Positions 22,129-64,000 of a stretch of DNA of 64,000 nt are shown here, in pieces. The notes beneath the pieces are model-generated. The model was not told the DNA's origin. It saw only the letters and a program-made list of their open reading frames with translations, and searched no databases. Every line of letters starts with the position of its first letter. Position 1 is the first letter of the stretch. Position numbers and translations under genes: made by a program. This DNA comes from Myrmaecium sp. VS I D KN 1 (lineage: Eukaryota; Ascomycota; Dothideomycetes; Valsariales; Valsariaceae), in assembly GCA_019775845.1 (NCBI GenBank), contig JADQAV010000047.1:124001-188000 (forward strand), written 5' to 3'.

Positions 22129-22526
22129 GTGGATGTGTGAACTGGACCGTGTAGTGCTCGAAGGTGGTGGAGGGCGCAGGGGGGTGGGTTAGAGGGAGAG
22201 AGAGGGGTGGTTTTGCAATCGTGCGCTGCATGCCGATGCGTTGCGTGCGCGCGTGCGGGGGTGTTTTAGAGTGAGATAGCGGGTCATCCTGAGCGAGGGG
22301 GATGGAGGTGGTCGGGTGCTAGTGCTTGTGCTTGTGCGTGTGCTTGTGCTCGTTCGGTGCTGACCGGGGGATCCCGGCGAGGGGAGGGGGAGCGACAGGA
22401 GGAAGAGGGTGAAGCCAGGGAAAAAAAAAGCTTGGCGAGGAAAAAGGACCTACCATGTCGCTTGCTTGATCTTGACGACCACCAGGCTGGGGGACAACCG
22501 CTGACGGGTTGACGAGGGCCTCGACT

Positions 22527-22581
22527 GGGGGGGCGGGGGGGGGGGGGGGGGGGGGNNCCCCCCCCCCCCCCCCCCCCCCCC
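22527..22581. other. Second assembly gap flanked by G-run and C-run
   Basis: A G-tract interrupted by one C (22527-22555) is followed by two N (22556-22557) and a C-run of about 24 (22558-22581). The layout is the same as at 12.3 kb. Confidence 0.93.
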
Positions 22582-22925
22582 GGAGGACGAACGGTGGTGG
22601 ACGGGCTCGCTACCTCAGGTCCTTTCTTCAATGCGCTATGCGGCGCAGGTGCGAGCGTGGGCGTCGGCGCGGGCGTGGGCGTAGGCGCAGGCGTGAACCT
22701 GGGCGTGGACCTGGGCGTGGGCGGGCGTGGGCAGGCAGGTTGATGCACGCGTGGAGAGGCTGATGCATGCAACTGCTGGCCTAGCAGGGAGCTTGTTGCC
22801 TACTGCTACCTAGGAGCTTTGCCCGGTGCGGGTGGTGTGTGTGGTGCGGTCGGGGTCAGGGCCGGGATCGAGAGAACCACGGGAACGCTGGAACGCTGCA
22901 AAACGCTGGGACGGATGCTGGGACG

Positions 22926-51145: not shown

Positions 51146-54100
51146 ATGTCGCCCGCTATCCCGATGGAGCGCTCCTTCTTCTCCGCACATGCGCACATGG
51201 AGGAGGAAGAGAAAACAACAACCGCAATGAAGCCCGTCCAGTTGGACTCCGCACTCATTGAGTACTTTCCATCAAAGTCTTCCGATCTTCCTTCCGCGCT
51301 GCCCTCCGAAGAGGACAGTATGCTGGCTCAGCAATCCCGACACGAACAGCCGTTTCTGCCTCATGGAGGCCATGATGCCGGAAGCCTTCTTCGTTCCAGT
51401 CCTCATCCTCGCGGCAGAGCTCAGCCTGTGAGAAGACCGCAAGGTCAGTATACTTCGCTCAACCACTGTTTCAAAGGAACTCACTGACTGTACGTAGCGC
51501 CGCGCCAACCATTCCAGCATCCTCGGGCTCCGGCAACAATCGAATTCAGTAACAAATACGCCGCCTTGGAGGACTCGGATGGCGATGGACCCGAGGAAAC
51601 ACATCATGGTAAGTCGAACTGAGCGCTTCTCTAGCTGTTCACACACACTACTCCACTATATTACGTCCGTTCCGAACAACTTGCCCGCAACTACTGTTTG
51701 GACAGTCTATTCACCCTACCCTTTGGCCCATTGTCCTTGATTCTGACGAATTGAAATCCGCCTTATGTCGCGGCTTTGGCTCTGCTTTACATTCCATGTC
51801 GCTTCATTGTGGGAGCAGATTTCGTCGAATATCTTTGTCTCTATCTTACGAAACCGCATGCTAACAATATATGTCCTTCTACAGAACTCAACCCTCATCT
51901 TATGGAGAGATTCACCAGCTCTCGCCCTCTACAGTCGGTACATCATCTGTCGCAAGCGGATGTCCGCATACTCCCGAATCCTGGATATGCAGAAGAAATT
52001 CAACGCTACTTCAACGAGTCGAAAACGACAAGGGCGGACGCTGGCTGGGCCTCGCGGCCAGAAGTTCCGACGCCTGAAGAGATTATGAGTGCTCAATCGT
52101 GTCCGGACCTAAAACCCAACATTCCACAGGGCTCTTTTGCCGATAAAGAGGAGTACTTGAAGACTCATTACGAATTGATGCGAGAAGATGCAACACGTCC
52201 ACTCCGCGAAGCTGTAGAGAAAGTGCGTGATAGACCTCACGCTATGGAGGGCGACCTCGGCGGGGCGATTGGTCTATATGATAAAGTCCATGTTGTTGGA
52301 ATCACCTTCGCGATCCGGGGAATTGCTGTTCGAATGGCTTTCTCTTTAGCGCGCATCGGCAAGAGGATACATTGGAAGCAATCGAAGCGACTGATGAGTG
52401 GCTCCCTCGTCGCTCTCTCCCCGCTCGGTGACATGTTCAGATCCTCTTGCGTCTTGGCCACTGTTGCGGCTCGTCCTCTCAATCTGGTGGATCAGGATCC
52501 TCCGGAGATTGATCTCTTCTTCAGCGGGCCAGAAGCGATCCAGCTAGATCCCAGTATATCATGGGTGATGGTAGAACATCGAGGTGCTTACTACGAGGCA
52601 GCTCGCCACACGCTTCGGGCGCTTCAGAAGCTTCGAACGGAACCCTTCCCTCTCAGCGAGCACTTAGTCGATGTTGAGACTACCGTCGACCCGCCACAGT
52701 ACCTCCTCAGGCAACCCCAATTGGACCTAAGTGCGGTAGTGACACTAGAAAATACTGATAAAGAAGTGTACCACACCGATGTTCTACAGGACTGGCCGAG
52801 CCATTCCAACATGAATCTTGATAAGTCGCAAGCAGCTGCCCTCAAGCGCATCATAACGAAGAGATTAGCCAACGTGCAAGGCCCTCCCGGGACCGGCAAA
52901 ACGCACGTTTCAGTCGAAGCATTGAAGGTCATGATCAGTAACCTCAAACCCGGCGATCCCCCTATAATCGTTACCTGTCAGACCAACCATGCTTTGGACC
53001 AGCTCTTAAAGCACATAGCTAACTTCGAAAAGAGCTTCGTCCGCTTAGGTGGCAGGTCGAAGGATACTGATATTATCAAGAAACGAACCTTGTTCGAAGT
53101 TCGAAGTCAAACACAAATCCCTGCCTGTAATAAGGTGTCCATCATTAAGAGCATGAGGGCTCTTACTGACCACATGAAAGGGATTGTGGAGCCCTTAGAA
53201 CTTGGGGATGGCCCGCTAGATCATAACATTTTGAAAGGGATGGGTCTGCTCACAGCGGAACAATGCGTTTCCTTAGAGCACGGCGATGACGACTGGGTAG
53301 GAGGCACCAGTGACGATAAATCAGCCGGAACACCCATAGAACGGTGGCTTGGTAACATGCTTATCCCAGCGGACCGGAACATCGAGCCTGACACCTTCGG
53401 CTTCGAATACGAGGAAGCAGACTTTGCTTTCGAACAACTGAAGGAGCAGGAAGCAGAGAACGTTGCTGCCGACGACGATGAGCTCGAGGCCCTTAAGGGG
53501 GTCTGGGTTCCTATCGCTGATAATTTCACGGGGAAGCGGTCAGGGGTGTATACCGATGAAAAGATCCGAGCGGAACTGCAAAAATATTCTGATATGACCA
53601 GGATGCCGATCAAACTTAGAGGCCCGGTATACTGCTATCTTCAAAGCCAAGCTAAGGCTAAAATCACTAAGCGGTTCCGTGAGAAAGCCGTGCAGTATCA
53701 GGCGTTGGTTGAGAAACGCCAGTTGAAGACGTGGGAAGAAAATATCTGGGTCCTGAAAGATCAAAAGGTTATTGGCATGACTACAACAGGCTTTAGCAAG
53801 TATAGGGCGATGATTTCAGTCCTCAAGCCGAAGATAGTGGTGGTCGAGGAGGCTGCAGAGACCCTGGAGGCGCCTGTGATCGCTACCTGCGTGCCATCAC
53901 TCGAACATCTTGTTCTGGTGGGAGATCACAAACAGCTGCGGCCGCATTGCCAGCTCATGGAACTTGAAGACGAGCCTTACTACTTGAATCTTTCGTTGTT
54001 TGAACGCATGGTTCTGAATGGCATCGAATTTAGCTCCTTGAAACGGCAACGCCGCATGATACCGGAGATTCGTCGTTTACTAAAGCCCATCTACGGAAAC

Positions 54101-55294
54101 ATGATCACAGACCATCCTCATGTGAAGGATCCAGCTGTTCGACCTCCGATTCCTGGCATGGGTGGCTGTAACTCTTTCTTCTTCACCCATGACTGGCCAG
54201 AGGAGCGGGACGCCACCATGTCTTGCTTCAACCGGAACGAGGCCGCTATGATATCCGGTTTCTGTAAGTATCTGATTTACCAAGGCATCCTCGGCTCTCA
54301 GATCACGGTCTTAACCTTTTACAACGGTCAACGCAAGAGACTTCGTGAAGCACTGGGCACCAACACGCATCTTCGCGGTTCCGGGATCAACATCTGCACG
54401 GTGGATTCCTACCAAGGCGAAGAGAATGAGGTCATCATCCTGTCCTTGACCCGCAGCAACAGCGACCGGAAGATTGGATTTCTGAGCGTGGACAATCGTG
54501 TCTGCGTGGCCTTGTCCAGAGCGAAGTGCGGGCTCTACATCTTTGGAAATGGCGAACTGCTCTGCAGCGAGAGCGAAACATGGGCCGCCGTCATCAGCAT
54601 CATGCATGGCAAATCCAACAAGAAAGAACAGGTTACACAAGGTCCTCCATCACGGCTCGGCTACCACCTCCCGGTGACTTGTTCCAACCACCAGCGTATC
54701 TTGTTCATGCAGCAGCCTGAGGATTGGGACCTGATCGTCGGCGGTTGCTTGCAGAAATGCACCGAGAAGCTCCCCTGCGGACATACGTGTTCCTTAACCT
54801 GTCATCCCAAGGGCCACGGCGACGACTTCGAGGTAGAGTGCCGACAGCAATGCCAGCGACAGCTGCCTTGCGGCCATCCGTGCAGTGCTCCCTGCTTGGA
54901 CGTCTGTCGATGCAACATCTGCATCGACCGCACCGGCAAGGTCGGCCTGCATCGCCGCGTCAATCACAACTCAGGTCAGATCGAGCCTCCCAGGCAGCAG
55001 GCTCCGCCGGACCACACCAGTCATTGGCATCACTATGCGGCCGGCGGCGTGAAGGAAGCGGACAGACGGCTGGCCAAGGAGCGTTCCGCTCAGGCTGCCG
55101 ACGCCCGCCGCGCTCGACTCGACGGCGAGAACTCCGAGCATCTGTTTGGAGTGACGTCCAGCAGCGGCAACTCCGCAAACCGCCTGCCGTCTCGCAGGGA
55201 GACCACGAGGAACGGACGGGTCTCGTACACAGAGCCTTTCAACCCTCGCATGGTCGATTACGGTCGGCAGGTGCCAGAGTCGCTCCTGGACTAG
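51146..55294 (+). CDS. SF1 helicase with NF-X1-type zinc-finger tail (ZNFX1/Hrr1-like)
   Basis: Three exons (51146-51443, 51498-51608, 51885-55294) encode 1272 residues; the 276-bp second intron ends with a GCTAAC branch site. The N-terminal 140 residues are low-complexity. The helicase core has the Q-type LDKSQAAALKRIITKR, Walker A GPPGTGKT (residues 469-476), Walker B-like VVVEEAAETLE (about 785-795), GDHKQLRPHC, QRRMIPEIRRLL, VDSYQGEENEVIILSLTRS and VCVALSRAKCGLYIFGN, the pattern of the UPF1-like SF1B group. The tail has Cys/His clusters (CLQKCTEKLPCGHTCSLTCH, CQRQLPCGHPCSAPCLDVC), which are NF-X1-type fingers. Relatives are animal ZNFX1 and S. pombe Hrr1, which work in small-RNA pathways and heterochromatin. 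A role in RNA silencing is inferred from that group. No CCCH finger is seen at its N-terminus. Confidence 0.93.
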
Positions 55295-57348
55295 ATGCTC
55301 GCTGTCCGTTCGACGAATCCCTGCTGCTGTTTTGTGATGGTTGGACTTTGTTTGCCATTCTGGTATAGTCGGGCTGTTGCGGTTCCTTGAGCTTCTCTTC
55401 AGAACAGAGGGAGGGGATAAAAGTCAAATGTGGTCTGTTTTCTCACGGTGTGTGTACGGTCTTGGATCGGCCTTCTCCTCTGATGGACTGTTTTTCCTGC
55501 GGTCCATCCTATCTCTCTTCCTTTCTTTGCTGTTCAATTCACTTTGGCGGCTTTGCTTTTACTCCCTTTCCCCTTTCCTTGTACGTTCTCCTCGGTGGGC
55601 GGCCCCTTTTTGTATTGATCCTCGACCTCTTTGCCTGGGATGGCGATTGCATATCTGGCTGAGAGGGTCCGCTTTCTCCGATGGTATTTCCCCCTGCCTT
55701 GTGCCTCTTGTGACTGAGGTTTTGGAACTCGGTTTTGCGCGCCGTCCCTCGAAAAGACGGACGAAAATGGGGAGGGGGAACGTTGGCGAAGATATGTATC
55801 TAGAGACAGAGAGGGGGAGGAATACAATCCTACCCGAGAAAGTGAATGAATGATTTGATTATCAACGTGTCACAGAGATTGTTTTGCACCACAGCTCGTT
55901 ATGCAGTCAGTCGCTCGGTTTGGTTTCGTGCAGGTGGACTTTTTTCATCCTCCGAGTATACTTTCTGTTTATCTACAAGAGAGGTTGGCGAGGCTGGCAT
56001 GGGAATTGGGATGAGAGGGCCATTTGATAGAGGTACGAATGCAATGCCCGATTCACTCTTCTACAAAGAAGGAAAAAACTACTATCCTGAATTTGAACCC
56101 CATGTTCTAGAATCCGAACAGCACCGTTTAAATGTTATTAATCGGTCGGACCGTTGTTCAACGGGTTTTTAGTTGGTTGTTGGTTGTGGGCGTTGGCATT
56201 CCACCCCTTCATTCTCCATCTCATCTCATCTCATCTCGTCTCCCGAATACAAGCGTCAACCTTGCTTGGAGTAGAGTTTCTTTCCCTCTTTTTGCGGGAC
56301 GGGACGGTAGGGGGTATATATAGAGAGAGGGTGTGCTGCTGCTGCCTCTTTTTTTGTACTCCTTTTCTTGCCTTTTTCGCTTTTTGTTTGTTGTACGTGT
56401 GTTTGTTGTGGTGCATCCTTCTTCTTTCGGGACGAGCAGGACCAAGACCAGGACCAGGACGACGACGACACGATGACACGGTACGACACGACATGACGCG
56501 ATAAACATGAGCGCCTGCTCTACAAACTAGGACTCTGAGACTGCTTCTCCTACCGACCTCGCCTACCTACGTACCTCCTACCACCACCCGACCTCACCAC
56601 CATGCAGCAGACGAAGAGCGGAGGGGAGTCGGTCAGTCAGTCCTGTCTGCTGCGAAATCGCACAGGCGGGTAAACAAAAACCAAACAACATCAACAACAA
56701 CAAAAGGTCGATCCAAATAAACAAACAAACAAACATATCACCAGCCTCCGGAAGTAGCTGCATGCATGCATGCACATCTATCTCAGCGACGACGCCTCCA
56801 CCCTTGGCGAGCGTGAGAGCGAAAAAAAAAGAGGTCGATCCTGCGATTACGAGGAGGAGTCCCGTTGTGATCGGACCACGTATGGGTACATGCGACGAGT
56901 GCATGTACATCCATCCAGAGCAAAGATCGATAGTACCGCATCTCGAAAGCGGTCAAGCGCGCAGGTGGTGCTTGGTGCTTGGTGCTTGGTGTGGTTGGTG
57001 ATATGGGTGGTTGGTGCTGCATGAAAGCGGGCGGACGGGTGGGCGGGTTTTGGTTGGTTGGTTGGGGAGGCTTGGACCGGGAACGCATGGGAATGAATCG
57101 TCCCCGCCCCCCGATCGGTCTGGGCAGCCCGCAGTGCAACTGCATCGCATCGCATCACTCATCTATCGCCCGCGAAAGAAAGAAAGAAGAAGAACCTGGA
57201 GACAAGTCTCGTCCGGTCAAGCAGTCAGCCATCCATCCAGCCATCCAGCCATCTGGCCAGCCCTTCGGTGCGCTCTTTTCTCACGACCTTACCTCCAGCT
57301 ATCGCTTGCTCGCTCTCCGCCTCGCCAACCACCCGCCAACCACCCTTG

Positions 57349-57385
57349 CACTGCACTCTGCACTCTGCACTCTGCACTCTGCACT
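57349..57385. repeat. TGCACTC tandem repeat
   Basis: About five 7-bp head-to-tail units (CACTCTG register), the last ones degenerate. Confidence 0.88.
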
Positions 57386-58290
57386 GCACCGCACTTCGCA
57401 GAGCGTGGGGACGTGATTCGATCGATGTGCGACCTCCGCATGGACCCATCTTTCTCTCCTCCCAGCAGCACCATGCACATCAGCCCCCTCCCCAATCCCC
57501 TCATCCATCCCTCACCACATCCTCGGCTCGGGGGGGTTTTTTTTTTCAGCTGAAGAGAGAGAGAGCTGAGCTGAGGGCGGCCTCCACCACGCCCACGCCC
57601 GCGCCCCCTCGTTGCCTAGGAAAGGACTCAGGTCCAGTCGGTGGGCTGACCAATGGTATAGCTCCACGACGACGAAGTTTCTAGCCGAGGTGGAGCAGCA
57701 GTAACAATCAATCAATCTGAAGAAGGACGGGAGGCTGGGAATCACAAAAGAACGGAGGAAGGAACCTGGAGGAAGGAGAAGTCCAGGTAGGAAGGAAGCT
57801 GCGAATGGGCGGATCCCCCCCGTCCCCCCACCTCTCGATGTCCCACCCAGCCGGTGTCGTGCACCGCTGGAGGAGCCCCCCCTGTCCTCTCTCCTCTCCC
57901 CTTTCTCTCTCTCTTTTCTTGTCTCTCCTTCGCTTTCTCTCCTTTTCCAGTCCCTCGCTCGCTCGTTCGCCTACACGAGTCAATGCTCCGCCCTCTCCCT
58001 CCACCCACTAACGCACGCATGTTGCGCACGGTACACACACGCCAACCTACGCACGCACGTACGCACGCCCACCACCACCACCTCCTCCCTCCTCCTCCTC
58101 CGGTGCGGTGGGGACCCGCTAGTTATGATCGACTAGCCGGGCTCATCAATGTGCTCGAGCGCGGTTCTGTTGTGGGATGGGAAGGCAGGAAGCTTGCTTG
58201 CTCGCTTGGTTTGCTCGCCCTTCTCCGGTCGAAGCTTCGAGCTTGAGCTTGGGAGGGGAGGGGAGGGGGCATTCCATGATCGTGGTAGGT

Positions 58291-58320
58291 AGTAGTAGCA
58301 GCAGCAGCAGCAGCAGCAGC
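58291..58320 (+). repeat. (CAG)n trinucleotide microsatellite
   Basis: Starts as GTAGTAG and continues as about eight CAG units. It lies upstream of the ATG-free hex1 leader. Confidence 0.93.
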
Positions 58321-58470
58321 GAGCAGCTCTTCTTTTCTGTCCCATCCTCTTGCGATGAGACAGCTGGCATGGGGGAAAAACGAATTGTGCTGCATGTCAG
58401 CATGGCCGTTGAAAAAGATAGGGAAGTGTTTTCGTAAGCTGCTCTGCTATTATTGCGTGCATCGTATCAT

Positions 58471-58673
58471 GAAATCCCCTCCCTTCTCCCCGGTCTGGTC
58501 CCCCTCTGCCCTTTCTGCGTCCATCCGTTGCCTTATCTTACCCGAACGGTTCCCGTTCGTACATACACGGTAAAGTTTAGTCCGGTACTGGTACTGCATC
58601 TTGTACGAAGGAGCTCCGCCTTAGCTTGGCGAGGCTGGGCTGGAAAGTGAGAGAGTGAGAGACGGAGCTCTAG

Positions 58674-58705
<32 letters not shown>

Positions 58706-60580
58706 GAGGGGGAGCACAATTCAGCTTGGAACAGCCTCGGCATCCCTGCCTCCTCCTCCCATCGCGCCTGCCCTCCTCTCTGCCTCCTCTCTTGCCTGCC
58801 CTTTCCCTTCCTGCCTCCTCCCGTCGTCCTGCCTTCCGTGATTGCATTTTTGGTCGCCCAGCCTTCAGGTCGACCTTTTGCGCCATCCCCCCCGGTCCAC
58901 CGGCCAGAGTACTTCATCTCCAAGCTCCTCACCCCTCAAACCTCACCGCTACAACCACGTATCCAGTCGGCTCCCCCTTCGATCCTCCCAGCCTCACCAG
59001 CACCGCACCGCACAGTCGTCCGCTCAGGCCTCTCTGCCACCGCTCCTCTTTTTTTCCCTTCCCCCTTCCCTTCTCTCTCACCGTCCCCATCGGGAATCGA
59101 AGAACCTCGGAAAGCGGGATTCTTCTGTTGTCTCTTTCGATCCAAGTCGAGGGAGCGCAACAGAAGAGGATAACGCCGGGTCCAAGCTGGATTTTGAACA
59201 GAAACTGCCCGTGCCCGTCTCGTTCTTCCCTTCGACGTACCGCAACGACGCCAAGGAGGAGGACCTCTCCCAGCTCTCGACGACCTCCACCTCCACCACC
59301 ACCACCGTCCAGGTAGAAGGGCACACCCGGCCGTCCGCTGAGTCCGCCGCGCGCGTCGAACGGGAAGAAGAGCAGGGCAGCAGCGTCAGCGGCAACAGCA
59401 GCAGCAGCGGCAACAAACAGCAGCGTCGCTTGCGCATCGATCAGCGCGATCCCCGGTACGAAGAGGAAATCCGTGTGTACGAGGAGCAGGACCGTGTTTC
59501 CCAGCGCCCCGGCCACCACCATCATCACCACCACCATCACCAAGCGTCCGAGCGCGAGCACGAGCACGAGCACCAGGAGCACTGGGTTGAGCAGCGTGAA
59601 GACCGTCGTCCCGCCCAACACCAGCACGAGGATCAGGTCGTAGAAGTCGACGTCCACCGCGAGAGGTACGTACAGTAGTGATCTTTATTCATCATCATCA
59701 TCTTCGTGACTTCTCTTTTACCACCGTCGTTTTATTATTTTTTTTTTTACGATACTCTCGCGTCATTTTTCACGTGGACGAGACGGCACAGCTCAGCTCA
59801 GCTCAGCTCAGCGACGACGCGGACATGGGCGGCGAGTCATTCACTTCCCTGTTTGTGCTGCTGCCGATCCGTCCCGCTCCTTCCTTTTCCTTGCTTTTTC
59901 ATTTGCCGTTTCCAGCCCCCTTCACCTCCCCTGTCCCCTGTCCCCTGCCCCTTCCCCTCCCCCCTGCCCTCCCCCATGTCGTCCGTCCCCGGCCCCGATT
60001 CGTCCGAGACAAGCGCCCGTTGCCGTTGCCGGGCCTCCCCGTTACTTGTCAGCCAGCCACGCCAGCTGGTCCGGGCGGGTGGCGGGAGGCAGGCGCTACT
60101 CCAGCAGCCGACCGTTTCGGGCACTTGGCGTTGGTGATCGGCCCGGCGAGCGGCCTGTCCCCTGTCACGGTTGCCGCGGCGACGGACGGCCCAAGCTCCC
60201 TCCTCCGCCCTCATATCCCGCATGTCCCGCATGTCCCAGGCGGCCCCCAACCCGACCTGAGCCAGCTCAGCTAACGCGTCCCTCGTGCCCTTCTCTCCAG
60301 GTACACGAAGCCCTTCCAAGCATTTGCCGGCGCCCACCTCGACACCGAGGACCGGACCTCCTCGTACGACCCCAGCTACCGTCCCGCCTCCTCGGTCCCT
60401 CACCACGACGAGGAGTCCGTGATTGACGTCTCCGAGCGTGAGTACCGTCAGCACACTCGTCCCATCAAGACCCACCCGGAGGAGTCCGTCGATCCACGCT
60501 ACTCTCCCGCCCCCACCGACGTCCGCGTAGAGAGCTCTACCCGGACAACCGTGGACCCCCCCAGGAAGTTCAAGCGTGAT
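58471..60580 (+). other. ATG-free, coding-like leader upstream of hex1, interrupted by one intron
   Basis: The last ATG before hex1 on the plus strand ends at 58470. From 58471 to 59665, and again in 60301-60580, there is no ATG at all. Within this, a frame open from at least 58842 to 59665 joins in phase (GAG AG/G TAC) to 60301-60580 and runs straight into the HEX1 methionine at 60581. From about 59160 the frame looks coding: C/G-ending codons and peptides such as RYEEEIRVYEEQDRV, EHEHEHQEHWVEQRED, VDVHRERYTKPFQAF and VSEREYRQHTRPIKTHPEE. Longer HexA forms with such an extension are known to me in aspergilli, where hex1 transcripts are alternatively spliced. Here, however, no AUG is available in the visible exons. 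See the findings for the alternatives. Confidence 0.75.
59666..60300 (+). other. 635-bp intron in the hex1 leader
   Basis: Donor GTACGT at 59666, acceptor CTCTCCAG ending at 60300, branch-like GCTAACG at about 60271. It is far longer than the other introns in this window (mostly 50-110 bp). It contains a (CAGCT)n stretch at about 59790-59812 and pyrimidine-rich DNA, and could hold a second promoter for a short hex1 transcript. Confidence 0.8.
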
Positions 60581-61339
60581 ATGGGATATTACGACGAGGA
60601 CGGCCAGTACCATTCATTCCGTCACGGTCTCCACAAAGCTGCCGATCGAATCCTCCACCCCATCCACGGTCACTCCCACAGCGAGCACCACAAGCACGAC
60701 CACGAGCACCACAAACACGACCACGAAGACAAGGAAGAAGTCGTGATCACCAAGTCCTCTTCCTCTACTTCCTCTGCTCCCTCTACCTACTCTGCTCCTC
60801 CTGCTCCCGTCGACTCCCTCTCCCGCGTGAGCTCTTCGTCTTCAACCTACGCCCCTTCCGTCCGCAGCCAGCCCGCTCGCACCATGGCGCCTCCCAACAC
60901 CATCACCATCCCGTGCCACCACATCCGCATTGGCGATCTCCTGATCCTTCAGGGCCGCCCTTGCCAGGTGATCCGCATCACCACCTCCTCCCAGACGGGT
61001 CAGCACCGCTACCTGGGTGTGGACATCTTCACCAAGCAGCTCCACGAGGAGTCCAGCTTCATCTCGCACCCGGCCCCCTCGGTCGTGGTCCAGAACATGC
61101 TCGGCCCGGTCTTCAAGCAGTACCGTGTCCTGGACATCCGCGAGGATGGCAAGGTCGTGGCCATGACCGAGACCGGCGACGTCAAGCAGGGCATTCCCGT
61201 CCTCGACCAGAGCGGCCTGCTCCACCGTCTTCAGGAGGCCTTTGACAACGGCCGCGGCAGCGTCCGCATCCTCGTCATCCACGACGAGGGCCGCGAGCTC
61301 GCCGTCGACTTCAAGGTCGTCCACGGCTCGAGGTTGTGA
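60581..61339 (+). CDS. hex1: Woronin body core protein HEX1
   Basis: Canonical form of 252 residues from the first available ATG. It begins MGYYDEDGQYHSFRHGLHKA, the usual HEX1 start. A His/Lys/Asp-rich and Ser-rich spacer follows (residues 25-100), then the eIF5A-like two-barrel core (about 104-252): TITIPCHHIRIGDLLILQG, then RPCQVIRITT, GQHRYLGVDIFTKQLHEESS, APSVVVQNMLGPVFKQYRVL, MTETGDVKQGIPVLDQS, and GRELAVDFKVVHGSRL. The final SRL is a type 1 peroxisomal targeting signal. HEX1 crystallises inside peroxisome-derived Woronin bodies that plug septal pores after hyphal damage, and it is restricted to Pezizomycotina. The core is in one exon with strong codon bias, implying high expression. 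It is longer than N. crassa HEX-1 (176) because of the spacer. An in-frame upstream extension is described separately. Confidence 0.97.
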   Translation: MGYYDEDGQYHSFRHGLHKAADRILHPIHGHSHSEHHKHDHEHHKHDHEDKEEVVITKSSSSTSSAPSTYSAPPAPVDSLSRVSSSSSTYAPSVRSQPARTMAPPNTITIPCHHIRIGDLLILQGRPCQVIRITTSSQTGQHRYLGVDIFTKQLHEESSFISHPAPSVVVQNMLGPVFKQYRVLDIREDGKVVAMTETGDVKQGIPVLDQSGLLHRLQEAFDNGRGSVRILVIHDEGRELAVDFKVVHGSRL

Positions 61340-63141
61340 GCGAGAGAAGAACAACACAAAAGCGGCAAAGGGACGGGAGTTTCTCCTCCCGTGTTCCTTC
61401 CTCCACCGTGCTATTTAATTGGTGTGGTTCGGTTCCCTTGCTGCACGTTTGGGAAAGGATGACGGCCCGGAAGCGAGACAAATCAAAGAGAGCATTAGAG
61501 GTTGACTGACCGTGGTTCCTTCACGTAGGGCCTCCTCCTCTCTCCCTCTCTTTCTTCCTCAAAAAGCGATGAGTCCATGACTTTTATCTTCAACTGGAGG
61601 GGGGTGTTTCTTTACCCTAAGCAAGAGAGAAAGGTTCTCCCTCACGTCTGGGCGTTATTGTTCCTCTTTCATATCCGGGACAGGATTGGATGGGATGGGA
61701 ATGTATACACACGCTCTCTCTTTGGTTTTTCTCGTTCTCGATCTGGGTCCTCTTTCTCTCCCTTCCCCTCTTCACTCGATGTCATCACACGACGTCACGT
61801 CATGTTCATGTCATGCGATCTAATGGCTTGCTTTTTTTGTTGTCTCGTTCTGTCCTTTCAGGTTCTGTGTTAAGTTAGGTGGTGCATGTTATGCTAAGAG
61901 GAGGATGAGGTCGGATGGAAGGGTACGATATGTATCGGATCGACTTGGCCTTGGCTTTTGGCTTGGTTCAGGTTGTGGGATTGGATGTAATGAGGTATAT
62001 AGCTAGTCATTTAGTATAGTTTAGGTACTTTGGATGGATGCGAGATAAAATGTTGCATTCCTTACTTGCTTAGTTACCTTGCTCTCTCTCTCACCCACTT
62101 TCTCTATTTCTCTCTCTTGGACTCATTGGACTTGATGTGCGTGTGGGAGTGATATGTGCTATGCTACTGCATCTTTCCCTGCTTCACTCCCCTCCCTTAC
62201 TCTATTGATGCAGGAAACATGACCGAGAACGGATCAGGGGAACGTTCAAGTTGTTGCGCATCTGCGGCGACGGAGTACGATCCTTCCTCTTTCCTCTTTC
62301 CCTTTCTCGTTCCCCGTTTCCTTCAGCTCATCCTTCGTACCCTTTCTCCCATCCTTCTCTCCCATGCTTCTTTCTTCCATCCTTCTTTCTCCCATCCTTC
62401 TTTCTCCCAACTCCCCCTCATTTCCCACCTCATTTTTTGAACGTTTTTTTCTATCAGTCTTTTGTTTATTCTTACTCGCTCACGCGGATCGATCCTCTCC
62501 CCCGATCTCCTCTGATCTCGTCTCGACCCGTCTCGTCTCGTCTCGTTCGTCCGCCTTTCTTTGTCTTCCAATGATTGTATGGATGGATGGATGGATGGAT
62601 AGACGGTATAAATGATATTGCATTAGGAGAGGGGAATGAGGAGGGAGAAGGAGGTAAGTTCGGTTTCAATTTCGGTTGCGGTTTCGGTCTACCCTGTTTT
62701 AATTTCGTCAAGCTTCCTCCTCCTTCTGCTCGTCCTCCTCATCCTCCTTACTCCTCCTCGTCCTCCTCGTCCTCCTTACTCCTCCTCGTCCTCTTCGCTT
62801 CCTGTTGTACTTCTGCATGGAATGTGGATGAAGATAGATATAGGAGGTTGGCTGGTTAGTTGGTACGGTTTAATTTGGTTTAGGTTTAGCTCACGCGTTG
62901 GACCCGTACGCAGACAGTCAAAATAACCAAAGGAAGGAAGAATAAGGGATTCTGCATTCAAAGCGTGCTCTGGGTATAAACTAAGTAAAAGGGGGGAAGG
63001 AGCAGCAGAGAACGGAAAAGAAGAAAAGTAACAACGCAAGAAAGAATGAACCCCCAACTCTACAAGTGAAAAAACCAGCCTATCCATCCAAGATCTAACC
63101 AGCTATCCCTCATCCGCACGCAGTATACACACGCCCCAATA
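61340..63141. other. Convergent intergenic region between hex1 and the thioredoxin gene
   Basis: About 1.8 kb with no supported gene. It contains TTCTTTCTCCCATCC-like imperfect repeats (62345-62410), (GGAT)n at 62577-62600 and CTCCTCGTCCTC-type repeats (62735-62795). The hex1 3' UTR probably occupies the left part. Confidence 0.55.
62577..62600. repeat. (GGAT)n tetranucleotide repeat
   Basis: About six GGAT units. Confidence 0.93.
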
Positions 63142-63810
63142 TCATCGTCTCCCCGCCCCCGCCCCCGCCACCGCAAACGGACTCGCCTGCGCGCCCGCAT
63201 ACGCATCCAAGCTCAAGAGACTGGCAAAGTACAGACCAACGAAGCGGACGAGGGTGCCAAGGAGGCCGGTGCGGCGGAGGGCGAAGGCCCAGCCGCCCAG
63301 GCTGGGGGCGGGCGCGGCTCCCGTGCCCAGCACGTGTCCGCGGGATTGGAAGGCGGGGGTGGCAGCGGTGCCGGCACCGCTGCCGGCTTTGGCGCAGGCC
63401 TCCGTGACGGCGCTCCGGAGGGCGGAGGGGTTGGCGCCCCGGATGGTGGTGGCGACGGTGCGGTTGTGGAAGATGAGGAAGGTTGGCATGCTGTTTGTTT
63501 TTATTTTTGGTGCTGGTCAGCGACAGGGTTCGGCGTGAGGGATATCAGAAGGGGGGGATGGGGCCGGGTTCGAATGAACTTACGCGCTGACGCCGTACTG
63601 GCCCGCGATGTCCGGATGCGCGTCCACGTCGATCTTGACGAAGGCGACCTTCTTCGGCTTGGTGTGGGTGGCGGCGAGCTGCTCGAAGACGGGCGCGATG
63701 GCCTTGCAGGGCCCGCACCAGGTCGCGTGGAAGTCGGCCACGACGACGACGTGGGTCCCGAGCACGGTGTTGAGGTGGGTGGAGGAGGTGATGGCGATCG
63801 GGCCGGACAT
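63142..63810 (-). CDS. Thioredoxin-domain protein with hydrophobic C-terminal tail
   Basis: Two exons (63810-63584, 63490-63142) encode 191 residues. Residues 1-105 are a complete thioredoxin fold: [20 protein letters not shown] with the redox pair C32/C35, [20 protein letters not shown], and the cis-proline loop [10 protein letters not shown]. After a Gly/Ala/Pro-rich linker there is an Arg-flanked hydrophobic stretch ([21 protein letters not shown]) near residues 150-172, then a short Ala/Gly tail ending in RR. A tail-anchored or membrane-associated thioredoxin is the natural reading; classic cytosolic thioredoxins are only about 105-110 residues. The domain call is firm; the membrane call rests on hydrophobicity only. 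Confidence 0.9.
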
Positions 63811-64000
63811 GGTGTGGTTTGGTGGTGGGAGTGGTGGTTGTTTGTTGGAGGACGAAGGGAAGGTAGGTGCGGAGATGTCGTCGGCGCGCGAGTGGGGTGT
63901 TGCTCTGTTTTCTCGGGGTGTCTTCACACAGAGAGGATGGTGAGGTGGTGAAGTCGTGACGAGGTCAGCAGCGTGAGGGAGGGTGGTTCGTTGAAGGTTG
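63811..64000. promoter_or_regulatory. Promoter side of the thioredoxin gene
   Basis: Short upstream stretch up to the window edge; no gene seen. Confidence 0.5.

Follow-up and report, generated by a model that had tools for sequence, protein, structure and literature searches.

An AUG-free leader in frame with HEX1 appears to encode a conserved N-terminal extension, possibly begun at a CUG codon

In-frame protein extensions begun at non-AUG codons are already known in fungi, and two such systems come closest to the arrangement described here. As presented in parts of PMC5487733, cpc-1 (CPC1; Pezizomycotina, Neurospora) resembles HEX1 in having a long, in-frame, protein-conserved extension, proposed near-cognate starts in good context and a downstream AUG that yields the short form, but cpc-1 has AUG uORFs and experimental support, whereas the HEX1 leader is AUG-free, its start is one that we infer, and the protein is a structural one. 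The words Woronin and hex are absent from the main text of that paper. In Ustilago maydis, the non-AUG start of Pgd1 gives a peroxisomal isoform according to a section of PMC7214817, which makes this a further fungal non-AUG extension on a peroxisome-linked protein; the Pgd1 extension is, however, short, bears a PTS2 and starts at AGG AUU, whereas that of HEX1 has about 250 residues and belongs to a protein with a PTS1-type SRL end. Spliced HEX1 isoforms of Verticillium and others, as described in portions of PMC7762394, are likewise pairs that differ in their N-terminal region, but both V. dahliae isoforms start with MGYYDD and vary only after it. The original prediction had counted known alternative hex1 splicing in Aspergillus as making an extended isoform plausible; since the intron described in PMC7762394 lies near the canonical start and both V. 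dahliae isoforms keep MGYYDD, the splicing described there does not support the extension. A proposal of non-AUG initiation in HEX1 was not found in the openly licensed literature searched, the available portions of PMC9882315, PMC5802734, PMC7559983 and PMC3713238 holding nothing on it, and the HEX1 case appears to be unreported there.

An RNA element has also been described at hex genes. The 'hexA motif', in the passages of PMC5640933 devoted to it, comprises 19 examples from 10 species, is a long hairpin in the hex 5' UTR or an intron, and has a 3' tail with codon-like variation and a right shoulder that resembles a 3' splice site; control of splicing leading to an altered ORF was suggested by its authors, and at least seven examples occur in the opposite orientation. 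The tail is not tied to a non-AUG start in those passages; we read it as the start of the HEX1 extension.

The window analyzed here is a stretch of 64,000 nucleotides from Myrmaecium sp. VS I D KN 1 (contig JADQAV010000047.1), and the features of its HEX1 gene are collected in Table 1. The canonical protein begins with MGYYD, matches eIF-5a in its C-terminal part and ends in SRL. Upstream of it, the frame 58842-59665 plus 60301-61339 is open for 620 codons across the splice, which bears out the original prediction of an open frame from 58842 that is spliced in phase into HEX1.

Table 1. Features of the HEX1 locus, in window positions.
Feature	Position	Strand	Basis or remark
AUG-free upstream part of the leader	58471..59186	+	frame open from 58842; composition not coding-like
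Hypothetical AUG exon (rival reading), donor GTAAAG	58469..58569	+	hand count; phase fits acceptor 59146
Hairpin, 22 bp, one bulge, 4-nt loop	59120..59168	+	possible 'hexA motif'
CUG, proposed start of the extended isoform (AAG CUG G)	59187..59189	+	Leu of SK-L-DFEQ
Extension, first part (exon A)	59187..59665	+	open frame, coding-like codon use, homology
Intron within the extension, GTACGT...CAG	59666..60300	+	frame continuity with relatives
Extension, second part, in frame directly into canonical HEX1	60301..60580	+	open frame, codon use, homology
Canonical HEX1, 252 residues, MGYYDEDG...SRL	60581..61339, stop included	+	

The position at which this open frame begins to resemble coding sequence is indicated by its codon use. 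In-frame GC3 is 0.61 for 58842-59186 and 0.79 for 59187-59665, and the frame-0 codon score is 3.5 for 58842-59116 (where another frame reaches 12.7) and -10.3 for 59117-59186, as against +39.5 for 59187-59665 and +13.8 for 60302-60580, where the other two forward frames are negative. Over 59187-59665, a score of +33.7 is also reached by one reverse-strand frame, and codon use alone therefore cannot fix the strand, which is fixed by homology. The coding-like frame that had been predicted is therefore present, but its onset lies near 59187 and not at 58842, and the extension amounts to about 253 codons instead of the up to 370 residues first proposed. The CTG at 59187 is the sole in-frame near-cognate codon in 58842-59300 with both A(-3) and G(+4). 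A search of the same genome for paralogues of the extension matched only its own two exons.

With the 620-codon frame as query, a protein search in which the candidates sharing the most words were scored returned 405 proteins, and many among the best 120 of these cover 80-86% of the query, which is nearly all of it after about residue 110. Two more searches, with relatives' extensions as queries, gave the best 120 of 229 and the best 120 of 222 matches, and the 282 relatives that were fetched are the top slice of these three sets. The matches listed include Geoglosso-, Xylono-, Leotio-, Sareo-, Candelario- and Coniocybomycetes, whose classes were looked up, together with genera that we take to be Dothideo-, Lecanoro- and Eurotiomycetes; the extension is thus found in HEX1 models of about nine leotiomyceta classes, and the best 120 of 405, 229 and 222 included no Sordariomycete that we noticed. 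Several of the public HEX1 models among the matches listed are marked 'partial'. Judged by these comparisons, the window frame appears to encode a conserved N-terminal extension of HEX1, recognizable by its hallmark (N/T/K)LDFDARVPIPFSVFPSSYRSDA, after which comes a charged stretch that varies. Its predicted tryptic peptides include VPIPFSVFPSSYR. From the PFSVFP block to the canonical Met, 240 relatives span 161-336 residues (median 223), and their gene models, which are not transcripts, run continuously through the extension to that Met. AlphaFold2 gives pLDDT values mostly of about 40-50 over the extension of one relative (P0119, 60 rows), and the extension is probably disordered on this model. 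HEX1, which fungi use to plug wounds, is known as a small protein that forms crystals, and its chains among 30 matched solved structures begin at or after the canonical Met. Pfam finds eIF5A-type domains in the three relatives submitted; a sub-threshold match to an RCR domain in one relative was rejected. The place of the intron at 59665/60301 seems to be conserved, in that 13 of 15 hand-picked unspliced ORFs of relatives pass, at the homologous position, out of intron-like sequence into a Ser and then a Tyr or Phe.

The upstream edge of this conservation falls at a single Leu, which corresponds to the CUG in the window. For this comparison, 204 of the 282 models were chosen by a pattern requiring Asp at +1, F/Y at +2, D/E at +3 and a V/I-P-x-P-F/I/S-S stretch, which makes the invariance of +1 to +3 and of VPxPFS partly a matter of construction; the Leu itself and position -1 were left free. 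The identity of the commonest residue is 0.11-0.53 at -20 to -2, in columns that mix contiguous and spliced models, rises to 0.86 at -1 and 1.0 at the Leu, and stays at 0.89-1.0 from there through +15. The homologous Leu is kept in 203 of the 204 models, the exception (P0098) looking like a splice-model effect, and it is preceded by N, T or K in 199. A 60-row alignment of hand-picked relatives has this Leu and the following Asp as its first invariant columns. Since N, T and K are all encoded by codons with A in first place, and Asp by codons with G in first place, the relatives by implication also have A(-3) and G(+4), although the CUG codon itself was seen in one genome, that of the window, the relatives being read as residues (Leu, with N/T/K before it). 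Met occurs at the Leu position in none of the 282 relatives; as CTG is one step from ATG, this suggests that a leaky start is wanted there. The canonical Met is preceded by K, D or N in 224 of 240 relatives, which implies a purine at -3 there as well.

Within the extension, Met is nearly absent. In 240 of the 282 proteins, an extension starting at the PFSVFP block, a linker that follows the canonical Met and a domain could be delimited; the 42 left uncounted lacked the FPSSYR block (35), a domain anchor (4) or the canonical start (3). The 240 extensions hold 1 Met in 53,408 residues, the linkers 64 in 17,253 and the domains 644 in 36,328. With one protein per cluster at 80, 60 and 50% identity (169, 79 and 41 proteins), the extension has 0 Met, and 149, 61 and 46 would be expected at the linker rate, which is a rough yardstick, as every linker Met is found no more than 30 residues from an end. 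The annotated sequence immediately before the Leu serves better as a control and, with the initial residue of each of the 204 models omitted, holds 110 Met in 8,306 residues (1.32%). A count begun one residue past the Leu, which covers 134 of 211 proteins, again gives 1 Met, in 29,688 residues, and it is the same one: it belongs to P0209, lies in a short insertion that two other Blastomyces models lack, and is probably a splice-model error. Over 7,121 aligned extension residues, the 42 uncounted proteins lack Met apart from the initial residue of the P0076 ORF itself (P0042, which starts with an M adjoining its aligned part, is uninformative for the count), so that the depletion is not accounted for by models cut short at an internal Met.

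The nucleotide sequence of the window tells a similar story. ATG is absent, as the original prediction had claimed, from both segments of the spliced leader, 58471-59665 (1195 nt) and 60301-60580 (280 nt), 1475 nt in total; the number expected is not the roughly 20 given there but 13.0 from base composition and 5.5 from dinucleotides, and a count of 0 was reached in 0.13% of 3000 dinucleotide shuffles. The 1356-nt gap between the ATG at 58469 and that at 59825 is the longest ATG-free gap of the window on either strand, the next measuring 685 nt and the longest in 100 shuffled windows 787 nt. The ATG at 58469 stands two bases 5' of the leader interval, the limit of which (58471) is the choice of the earlier reader and not a mapped transcript end. 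The 635-nt intron differs from the spliced leader in having 4 ATG (59825, 59976, 60222 and 60231) and not 0 (Fisher P 0.008), which is the pattern expected if the spliced message is under selection. When synonymous codons were permuted within the 759-nt extension, the lack of out-of-frame ATG was borderline (2.2 expected, P 0.05), the same permutation of the canonical CDS as a control giving P 0.47. Codons drawn from the long ORFs of the window also indicated too few ATG in the extension (P 0.0001), a test that was set aside as non-specific because the canonical CDS control likewise gave P 0.0001.

The AUG-free open frame, the conservation of the protein, the depletion of Met, the edge at the Leu and the CUG in its context are observations, and we consider them best explained, with a probability of roughly 0.6, by a single message on which leaky initiation at the CUG gives a minor HEX1 of 505 residues and initiation at the AUG at 60581 gives the canonical protein. 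Position, context and residue conservation point to CUG 59187 as the probable start. Some ribosomes would initiate at this codon, whose context is favorable, and would produce the 505-residue form with its 253-residue, probably disordered N-terminal extension; those that bypass it would have 756 nt of spliced leader left to traverse, free of AUG in all frames, and would initiate at AUG 60581, making the 252-residue protein the major form. An AUG inside the extension would intercept ribosomes as they scan, and this would be the reason for its exclusion there. A low dose of the long form is plausible, given that a bulky disordered tail on every subunit would ill suit a crystalline core. Two of the explanations offered in the original prediction, a leader selected to lack AUG and a non-AUG extension, would then both hold as two sides of one arrangement, since the extension is conserved in relatives and nearly free of Met. 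Leaky CUG initiation has evidence against it as well, in the many public models that have an AUG exon spliced on upstream, in the borderline depletion of out-of-frame ATG in the window, and in a hairpin just upstream of the CUG.

This hairpin is strong (-38.1 kcal/mol for a 91-nt fold, z -3.64), and its stem ends 18 nt before the CUG, which counts against scanning to that codon unless the hairpin is spliced out. Its right arm holds a 3' splice-site-like CAG at 59161-59163, and, compared with the textual description in parts of PMC5640933, it is like the hexA motif in being a long hairpin upstream of hex coding sequence with a splice-like right shoulder. Since it is expected to impede scanning, the hairpin may be removed from the message through a splice near this CAG, and the CUG would then stand 23 nt into the exon. 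Its stability is not unique in the window, where the best 64-nt window of the hairpin ranks 60th of 15,984 and many of the more stable ones sit in a G/C run at about 22.5 kb or in other GC-rich stretches; that run (about 22525-22585: G run, two N, C run) is probably an assembly join artefact. A search for inverted repeats with arms of at least 12 nt did not report the hairpin, the gap-free arms of which are probably shorter. Rfam, applied to 54001-64000 with E up to 1, returned three weak microRNA matches (E 0.15-0.84, far below gathering), which were rejected, and no other family.

The same splice-like shoulder lends itself to the main rival of leaky CUG initiation, which we think rather unlikely: a missed upstream exon that supplies an AUG and is joined to an acceptor near 59146-59163 would start the extension, and messages without this exon would use the region as a leader, hence its lack of AUG. 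Many annotated relatives do have such an exon, often joined just before HSRKDA, the hexA motif has a 3' splice-site-like right shoulder (as described in part of PMC5640933) as does the hairpin of the window, and an exon at 58469-58569 would be in phase by hand count. The annotated exons, however, differ even within Trichophyton and within Penicillium; 106 of 159 annotated upstream segments, which are predictions and short enough to give weak power, have no similar counterpart among the others at E 0.001, and each of the six printed clusters is confined to a genus or family; moreover, conservation falls away at the Leu. With one donor pattern, which leaves the 58469-58569|GTAAAG exon outside, there are 9 candidate AUG exons for acceptor 59146 and 13 for 59163, but a possible AUG exon was found for 18 of 18 AG sites in the window, so that candidates of this kind arise easily by chance and are uninformative. 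An upstream AUG exon had been the remaining explanation in the original prediction; no conserved AUG exon is seen in the relatives' models, which are predictions with short upstream segments, and possible exons can be found in the window for any acceptor.

Initiation at a different near-cognate codon that precedes the Leu, such as one in the FERHSRKDA-like stretch, would agree with the moderate conservation of this stretch across classes and with the open frame of the window across it, but we hold it to be distinctly improbable, as no conserved near-cognate codon is evident there, the in-frame codons of the window are poor in context, and an RNA hairpin can explain why the stretch is conserved. 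Its length also varies, the distance from F to Leu being 14 in 48 models (FERHSRKDA type) and 10 in 27 (AFEKRR type), two classes that may reflect RNA elements or splice sites and not protein. Least probable of all, and very much so, is an annotation artefact in which an untranslated leader, open by chance, passes for an extension: hypervariable N-terminal extensions of database HEX1 may come from faulty annotation, according to a passage of PMC7762394, but a near-invariant protein block is present in 204 of 282 relatives, homology is continuous to the canonical Met and the codon use is coding-like. The warning in that passage fits the sequence upstream of the Leu and disagrees with that downstream of it; database HEX1 extensions would accordingly be recast as probably wrong upstream of the Leu and probably right downstream.

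Whether leaky CUG initiation extends to a two-isoform HEX1 across much of leotiomyceta is, in our estimate, evenly balanced. A small, steady share of HEX1 would then carry a disordered tail of about 170-340 residues, with the tail held free of AUG across the whole group so as to maintain the isoform ratio, and the long form would serve in surface capping or tethering. We conjecture this function on the grounds that the tail should not fit the HEX1 lattice, which would leave the long form at the surface of the core, where it would cap the core or tie it to a membrane, septum or tether. If this is true, the conserved long isoform is an unrecognized component of the Woronin body that could bear on the sizing, sorting or tethering of its core. 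Met depletion in a conserved in-frame leader offers a simple signal for finding more fungal genes of this kind.

Two minor observations concern the protein sequence. The window extension contains a His9 run (about 59515-59541), and the His-rich stretches of relatives lie mostly after the canonical Met (12.7% His in the linker, 3.3% in the extension); septal targeting of A. fumigatus HexA is cited, in a passage of PMC7762394, as requiring a polyhistidine motif in its N-terminal region, and the His9 run may or may not be relevant to function. The only other eIF-5a match in the genome (L001, G000:C34:345841-345969) is presumably the true eIF5A gene.
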